Part shown: in pieces, positions 3,009 through 3,834 of the stretch
How the letters are laid out: each line of letters begins with the position of its first letter
Position numbering within the stretch: position 1 is the first letter of the stretch
Assembly: GCA_029865945.1 (NCBI GenBank)
Contig: JARXAH010000054.1
Span: 1-64,000, forward strand
Direction: 5' to 3'
Length of the DNA stretch: 64,000 bases
Source: Bacteriovoracaceae bacterium
GTDB lineage: Bacteria; Bdellovibrionota; Bacteriovoracia; Bacteriovoracales; Bacteriovoracaceae
Program-made: the position numbers and the translations under genes
Notes under the pieces: model-generated
What the model was told of the DNA's origin: nothing
What the model saw: the letters and a program-made list of their open reading frames with translations, nothing else
Databases searched by the model: none

Positions 3009-3202
3009 TGGCTCCCCTAAAGTTCGCTGATTAGTAATAAAATTATAAAGGAATTAGAGAAATACCAGAAAAACGTAAAGAACCTAGATTAATTACAAGT
3101 ATTTATCTTTGTGAAATAAATAGGAAAATGGGAAAACTGCACCAAATTGTGGGCAGGCCGAAAATTAAGTTGCTAAAAAAATCAGTAGGGCCTACTCAAA
3201 AT

Positions 3203-3697
3203 TTATTCAAAATCTCTATCTAAAAGTGTTTTCCTTCCTTCACTCTTCGCCTTCATGGCGGCCCGATCAGTAAACGTTCTCACATGATCGGACAAGATTT
3301 TCATCACATTGGCAGAGGTATTAAGATCATGCTTATCTTTTACGAATTGCTTCAATTTTGAAGCTACAATTAATATGTCATCACTTGAATACGTCACTGC
3401 GGATGCAGGATTTGTTTGCTGACCGCTTTTGGGAGGAGTGATGACCACACGTCTAACTCCTGTTGGCGGTGCAGATTCGGCCAAAAAATTTGATTCTTCT
3501 TTTTTGGGAGAAATTCGGTCCTCTGACCAGGCACTTTTGTGATTTAAAATAGAATTATGAAGGCTCCAGCAATCTACGGAACAATAAGCAAATTTTTGGC
3601 ATGAAGCAATACCGCAAACTTGATACGTAGTCTGATAAGCAATCTCTTTCTTGCAGCTTCCACACTTTCGCCAGTAACTATGGGCGTTTGATTCCAT
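3203..3697 (-). CDS. Zinc-finger / histone-fold fusion protein
   Basis: A 164-residue cytosolic protein with two parts. Residues 12-53 hold a cysteine/histidine cluster, C12-x2-C15, C28-x4-C33, C39-x3-C43, H47 and H53, with the YCSVDCW...H core typical of MYND/HIT-type zinc fingers. Residues 54-103 are a low-complexity, proline/serine-containing linker. Residues 106-163 read as one histone fold: helix, strand loop (DLNTSAN), long central helix (MKILSDHVRTFTDRAAMKAK) and the closing signature GRKTLLDRD. That signature has the R, T(+2), D(+7) spacing of archaeal histones (GRKTIKAED in HMfB) and of the Bdellovibrio histone type. Start ATG at 3697 has AAGGTGG upstream. It stands alone as a transcription unit. 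A DNA- or nucleoid-binding role is inferred. Surveys of prokaryotic histones have described a zinc-finger class (ZZ histones), to which this may belong. Confidence 0.8.
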   Translation of the reverse strand: MESNAHSYWRKCGSCKKEIAYQTTYQVCGIASCQKFAYCSVDCWSLHNSILNHKSAWSEDRISPKKEESNFLAESAPPTGVRRVVITPPKSGQQTNPASAVTYSSDDILIVASKLKQFVKDKHDLNTSANVMKILSDHVRTFTDRAAMKAKSEGRKTLLDRDFE

Positions 3698-3834
3698 CTT
3701 TTTCCACCTTGTTATAATGATTACATTATATACTGACGCGGTTTTGATTTTCCATACACAGAAAGCATAGCATTCCAGTCAACCATGATGATTCAGTTTT
3801 GTTTTGGGTTTCCCTAAAATCTGTGAAACCTGCA

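Follow-up and report, generated by a model that had tools for sequence, protein, structure and literature searches.

A zinc-finger histone of a Bacteriovoracaceae bacterium: an HBb-like histone fold joined to a finger that also occurs on its own

What does a bacterium do with a histone fold that is joined to a zinc finger? The question is raised by one gene in the window, i.e. the whole stretch of 64,000 nucleotides analysed here, which belongs to a genome of 3.08 Mb in 103 contigs. The initial annotation had placed this gene at 3203-3697 without giving a strand. According to the ORF list and the translation these coordinates are exact, the gene lies on the minus strand, starts with ATG and has an intact frame; the plus strand of 3203-3697 is rich in stops. 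The gene and its putative signals are:

3203 to 3697, minus strand: zinc-finger ('ZZ') histone gene, 164 amino acids plus stop, from the ORF list and translation, with full-length relatives in Bdellovibrionota and Myxococcota
3704 to 3710 (read 3710 to 3704), minus strand: Shine-Dalgarno sequence aaggtgg, read directly, 6 nt 5' of the ATG
3725 to 3754, minus strand: promoter-like site TGGAAA-18-TATAAT from a consensus scan, with 10 of 12 matches
3175 to 3196, minus strand: short palindrome AGTAGGCCCTACT then GATTTTTTT, a possible terminator, read directly

The TATAAT hexamer is located at 3730-3725 on the minus strand; the consensus scan yielded no more sites than shuffled sequence, and the TGGAAA-18-TATAAT site is suggestive only. 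The palindrome at 3175-3196 was not called in the terminator scan.

The combination of the two domains is known. 'ZZ histones' were defined by Schwab et al. 2024 (PMC11390915) as proteins with an N-terminal C4 + C2H2 finger and a C-terminal bacterial-dimer-like fold close to HBb, and the initial annotation had rightly stated that zinc-finger histones are listed in surveys with their function unknown. Because the window gene has the ligand and histone-fold features of ZZ histones, its product is a divergent new member of this published class; the class itself is not new, and the individual gene is ordinary within it. The published example, D0LYE7 from Haliangium, agrees with the window protein in the first four spacings between ligands and in the closing H-x5-H, whereas in the window protein and most of its family there are four residues fewer between the fourth and the fifth ligand. 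The legend of Fig. 4 in PMC11390915 gives C53 of D0LYE7 as a ligand where the family spacing predicts C55, probably a numbering slip. In the literature we found no zinc, DNA-binding or dimer experiments on any ZZ histone. The ZZ histone of B. bacteriovorus is presumably Bd3044. Hocher et al. 2023 (PMC10627809) describe Bd3044 as a second histone that is longer and less conserved. In a FEMS review the deletion of Bd3044 is said to be lethal (PMC11318664); the main text of the primary paper, PMC10627809, does not support this, as its deletion attempts concern bd0055 alone.

How much of a histone has been retained in the C-terminal part? The following elements can be recognized:

3209 to 3379, minus strand: alpha3-type histone fold, residues 107-163, from phmmer to HBb, AlphaFold2 and Foldseek
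3212 to 3235, minus strand: L2 loop and closing motif R155-K-T157-LLDR-D162, with R155, T157 and D162 invariant in 71 sequences

The invariant triplet is the R-x-T-x4-D closing motif of histones that the initial annotation had singled out, and the homology to the Bdellovibrio histone proposed there is borne out as well. In phmmer, residues 107-163 match HBb of Bdellovibrio bacteriovorus (8cmp) with an E-value of 6e-8, and the best solved-structure matches in Foldseek are HBb, with TM-scores of 0.83-0.88 by target length. In the suggested check against histone families, the histone region also matches archaeal HTkC (9f2c, E 0.0012); the Pfam archaeal-histone model stays below cut-off with the isolated domain (E 0.073). 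The match of our histone profile to HBb in the PDB is circular, HBb being a row of that profile, and was excluded as homology evidence. With the 71-sequence alignment, AlphaFold2 predicts helices 112-123, 129-152 and 160-163 (12, 24 and 4 residues), i.e. the expected order of helix, long helix and helix, here of the alpha3 type. A doublet histone of 155 residues, which combines two alpha3-like folds in one chain, is encoded on a separate contig of the window's own genome (C6, L004:6116-6583).

In HBb, the residues with most DNA contacts are N22, R57, S9, T53, T8, S24, K10, K12, K52 and K16 (Hu et al., PMC11317129). In the phmmer alignment they correspond, in the same order, to N126, R161, S113, T157, A112, S128, K114, K116, K156 and K120, i.e. 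nine of the ten are identical in the window protein and only T8 is replaced (A112). Within the 71 full-length proteins S128 and T157 are conserved to 100%, S113 to 99%, K116 and R161 to 97% and N126 to 93%; position 114 is always Lys or Arg, position 156 is Lys in 79% (Arg in 10%) and position 120 is mostly basic. K114, K116 and K120 also supply the basic residues of helix alpha1 expected at positions 11, 13 and 17 of the bacterial-dimer profile. Because nine of the ten HBb DNA-contact residues are identical, a DNA-bending dimer is the likely activity, and from the sequence we infer that the histone part dimerizes and very likely retains DNA binding and bending; the contact residues may instead owe their conservation to folding. 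HBb (Bd0055), a bacterial dimer histone, has the same histone fold and these contacts, but consists of the histone fold alone, whereas the window protein adds a finger and a linker. The two types also differ in amount, as in B. bacteriovorus HBb is abundant and the ZZ histone beside it shows low expression and is scarce (PMC11390915).

The N-terminal part is occupied by the finger:

3506 to 3673, minus strand: zinc-finger module, residues 9-64, from ligand conservation in 71 sequences and AlphaFold2 pLDDT of about 93-97

The eight Cys/His ligands that had been read from residues 12-53 are present as six Cys followed by two His (C12, C15, C28, C33, C39, C43, H47 and H53; 3539-3664, minus strand), spaced as CxxC, then C-x4-C, then C-x3-C-x3-H-x5-H. 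In the alignment of 71 full-length proteins seven of them are invariant and C39 is Cys in 97%, and the ligands are followed by a conserved extension, A-x-S/A-x-E/D-x3-P. Chance or artefact is ruled out as an explanation by the conservation across the 71 proteins. AlphaFold2 predicts the finger confidently (pLDDT about 95 within the full protein and 93 when folded alone) and places the sixth Cys and the first His on its single helix. From the ligands we infer that the finger binds zinc.

To which family does this finger belong? With the eukaryotic ZZ domain (PF00569) it would share two zinc sites of the C4 + C2H2 type, as reported in PMC11390915, but the ZZ domain has CxxC as its third Cys pair and lacks the helical C-x3-H. 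Pfam ZZ is missing from the 25 families that were listed for the 79 fingers at E-values up to 1, as well as from the 20 families found for 20 members at E-values up to 5. The weak Pfam matches of the 79 fingers include FCS/MYM, VATC, FLZ, HIT, MYND, C1 and the uncharacterised DUF7576; zf-HIT (PF04438) appears in 7 of the 79, below its curated cut-off, zf-MYND (PF01753) scores 12.1 bits with the window finger against a curated cut-off of 22.7, and FLZ, an FCS-type finger, reaches E-values of 6e-4 and 8e-4 in two close relatives. An NCBIfam scan returned nothing relevant. In a Foldseek search with the finger a TRASH domain ranks first, followed by MYND domains, and HIT (Bcd1) has the highest target TM-score among the matches listed (0.58), whereas the ZZ domains listed have lower probabilities of at most 0.16; none of these matches is significant, and the nearest folds, MYND, TRASH/MYM and HIT, are all weak. 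Cytochrome c3, the main match of the finger profile against solved structures, was rejected, the match being due to Cys spacing. Like the zf-HIT, zf-MYND and FCS-type treble clefs, the finger has the signature [FY]-C-S-x-x-C, carries the sixth Cys and the next His on one helix and gives weak profile and fold matches to them; unlike them, it has a His as the last ligand and C-x4-C as the second ligand pair, and it scores below their curated cut-offs. Thus, although all assignments are non-significant, the finger spacing fits the HIT/MYND/FCS treble clefs better than the published label 'ZZ'. The MYND/HIT-like ligand order (CxxC ... C-x3-C-x3-H) given in the initial annotation is a fair description by spacing, the accompanying fold and profile matches being weak and non-significant. 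The label 'ZZ' is doubtful and should be held loosely, neither ZZ nor MYND/HIT being proven.

Between the two domains lies a flexible linker, as had been supposed:

3383 to 3505, minus strand: linker, residues 65-105, with low pLDDT, mostly disordered in the model and varying in length among relatives
3446 to 3454, minus strand: short basic linker motif R82-R83-V84, family consensus P-x-R-R-I

AlphaFold2 gives a pLDDT of 48-73 over residues 71-110. A motif R[RKI][ILVM] is found in 46 of the 71 linkers, and five relatives in the window's family (L060-L064) have kept the histone fold and a P-R-R-I-L-V linker motif, with the finger absent from the same ORF. The motif could hold the finger against the histone fold, a packing that a monomer model would not reveal.

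Based on these features we speculate, giving the idea an even chance, that the ZZ histone is a DNA-bending dimer whose tethered fingers dock on a partner other than a histone, i.e. a scarce and targeted architectural protein. The histone folds would pair as in HBb, and the dimer would bind and bend DNA of any sequence, contacting it via S113, K114, K116, K120, N126, S128, K156, T157 and R161. Each subunit would carry a zinc-stabilised treble-clef finger on a flexible tether of roughly 40 residues, and the dimer would therefore present two fingers beside the bent DNA. As an independent docking module, the finger would tie the DNA-bound dimer to its non-histone partner, which may be a protein or a nucleic acid, and the ZZ histone would act as a targeted architectural factor rather than in bulk packaging. 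The main rival, which we consider unlikely though far from negligible, is that the finger itself binds DNA or RNA and makes a second, possibly structure-specific contact, which would make the ZZ histone a nucleoid protein of two modules that has no protein partner. The finger is indeed basic, the median of K+R minus D+E being +4.5 in fused and +5 in stand-alone fingers, but the window's own finger has only +2. Its conserved non-ligand residues include W9, R/K10, K16 and R54/K54, and the weak, non-significant fold matches include treble clefs of ribosomal protein L24e. Moreover, MYND, HIT and ZZ fingers are mostly protein-binding, which counts against a finger that contacts nucleic acids.

In profile searches the finger was found in 174 of 369 genomes of the window's phylum, Bdellovibrionota, nearly always in one copy. 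In the phylum to which the myxobacterium Paraliomyxa belongs, 58 of 189 genomes have it. Named relatives are mainly from Bdellovibrionota and Myxococcota, and the search for orthologs with the same domain order recovered full-length relatives across both phyla. No relative was found in viral contigs, plasmids or phages, and on this ground a mobile origin was ruled out. Apart from the histone fold, no domain was found fused to the finger, which otherwise stands alone. At one locus (L073 of G083, 2-1108) the finger ORF continues in frame, from where the histone fold would begin, into a sequence resembling a methyltransferase, which is probably a deletion or an assembly join. Four ZZ-histone copies of the phylum (G091, G357, G034 and G190) contain an internal stop codon, which may point to decay of the gene in some lineages.

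Stand-alone finger proteins of 65-138 amino acids were read directly in at least 24 Bdellovibrionota genomes; with three further genomes assigned by position, the finger and the sole histone being on different contigs, a lone finger occurs in at least 27 of the 174 finger-bearing genomes. Myxococcota have stand-alone fingers, too, in two genomes as a second copy beside the fused protein. A tree was built from 171 fingers, of which 134 are fused and 37 have no recognised histone fold attached; a few of these 37 are truncated by a contig end or irregular (L073, for example). Its well-supported branches require at least five switches between fused and unfused states, the tree having few columns and being poorly resolved. 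As either domain has been lost repeatedly, the union of finger and histone could be of little importance. In genus g125 all six genomes, five of them at least 91% complete, have a lone finger, and none of the six gives a match to the alpha3 histone profile, CBFD_NFYB_HMF or DUF1931. The g125 fingers differ by up to 16% at non-synonymous sites, synonymous sites are mostly saturated, and dN/dS is 0.09-0.13 where measurable. Judged from these substitutions, the g125 finger is under purifying selection and has a role that needs no detectable histone.

These lone fingers bear on three readings. It is improbable, in our estimation, that the finger is the working part of the fused protein and the histone fold a dispensable dimerization device: the lone finger does persist, under purifying selection, in several families and in histone-free genomes, but in the fused proteins the histone fold has retained its DNA-contact residues, and the five relatives mentioned above lack the finger and still have histone fold and linker motif. 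A finger that recognises the tails of other histones, in the manner of certain eukaryotic ZZ domains, we hold to be very improbable. The idea follows from the name, as eukaryotic ZZ domains bind H3 tails, and it was considered in PMC11390915, where it was thought unlikely, a second histone being found in only half of the proteomes. In addition, the Pfam matches listed for the 79 fingers do not include ZZ, and the argument against a tail reader is strengthened because the finger is under selection in g125, where no histone is detectable. For the same reason the partner of the finger need not be a histone. We give a little less than an even chance to the idea that the finger forms a separate prokaryotic treble-clef family with a partner of its own and a role wider than its union with a histone. 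As a docking module it would in some bacteria bring a DNA-bending histone to this partner and in others work alone, also in a lineage without detectable histone.

Do the gene neighbours name the partner? The window copy is adjoined by two lipoprotein-like ORFs, which do not recur next to the gene in 20 relatives from the same family, and among 98 loci no convincing phylum-wide conserved neighbour was found. In 17 genomes from five genera of the window's family (f1) a gene for an NMNAT-like nucleotidyltransferase lies on the same strand next to the ZZ histone, at distances from -41 to +19 nt, i.e. the genes overlap or abut, and in some genomes this neighbour is fused to NUDIX (loci L214-L232; L005-L032, family f1). 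This pairing is a lead toward NAD metabolism, but not proof, and a ZZ histone that works together with NAD metabolism via this gene seems to us a long shot: the pairing is absent beside the window gene, whose genome has the homologue elsewhere (L234:1312-2295, beside an sfsA-like gene), it was not seen outside the window's family, and unrelated genes are often joined in bacterial operons. In genus g36 (L009, L016, L019 and L023) a gene for a protein with a Lys/Ala-rich H1-like tail and a SWIB domain follows 67-86 nt downstream of the ZZ histone; such a chromatin-type protein fits a chromatin setting and counts in favour of the proposed docking dimer, but is not proof. In family f14 (L154-L162) a membrane pyrophosphatase-like gene is next to the lone finger in all nine genomes that have such a finger. 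The neighbours name no partner of the finger.

Taken together, three points are new here: the HBb-type DNA surface is intact, the name 'ZZ' is doubtful, and the finger also exists free-standing. Research on bacterial histones is young, and ZZ histones are without known function. With the retained DNA contacts and the free-standing fingers, the combination of histone and zinc finger can be taken apart into two modules, each open to testing, and the histone-free genus g125 provides a natural test of the role of the finger without a histone.
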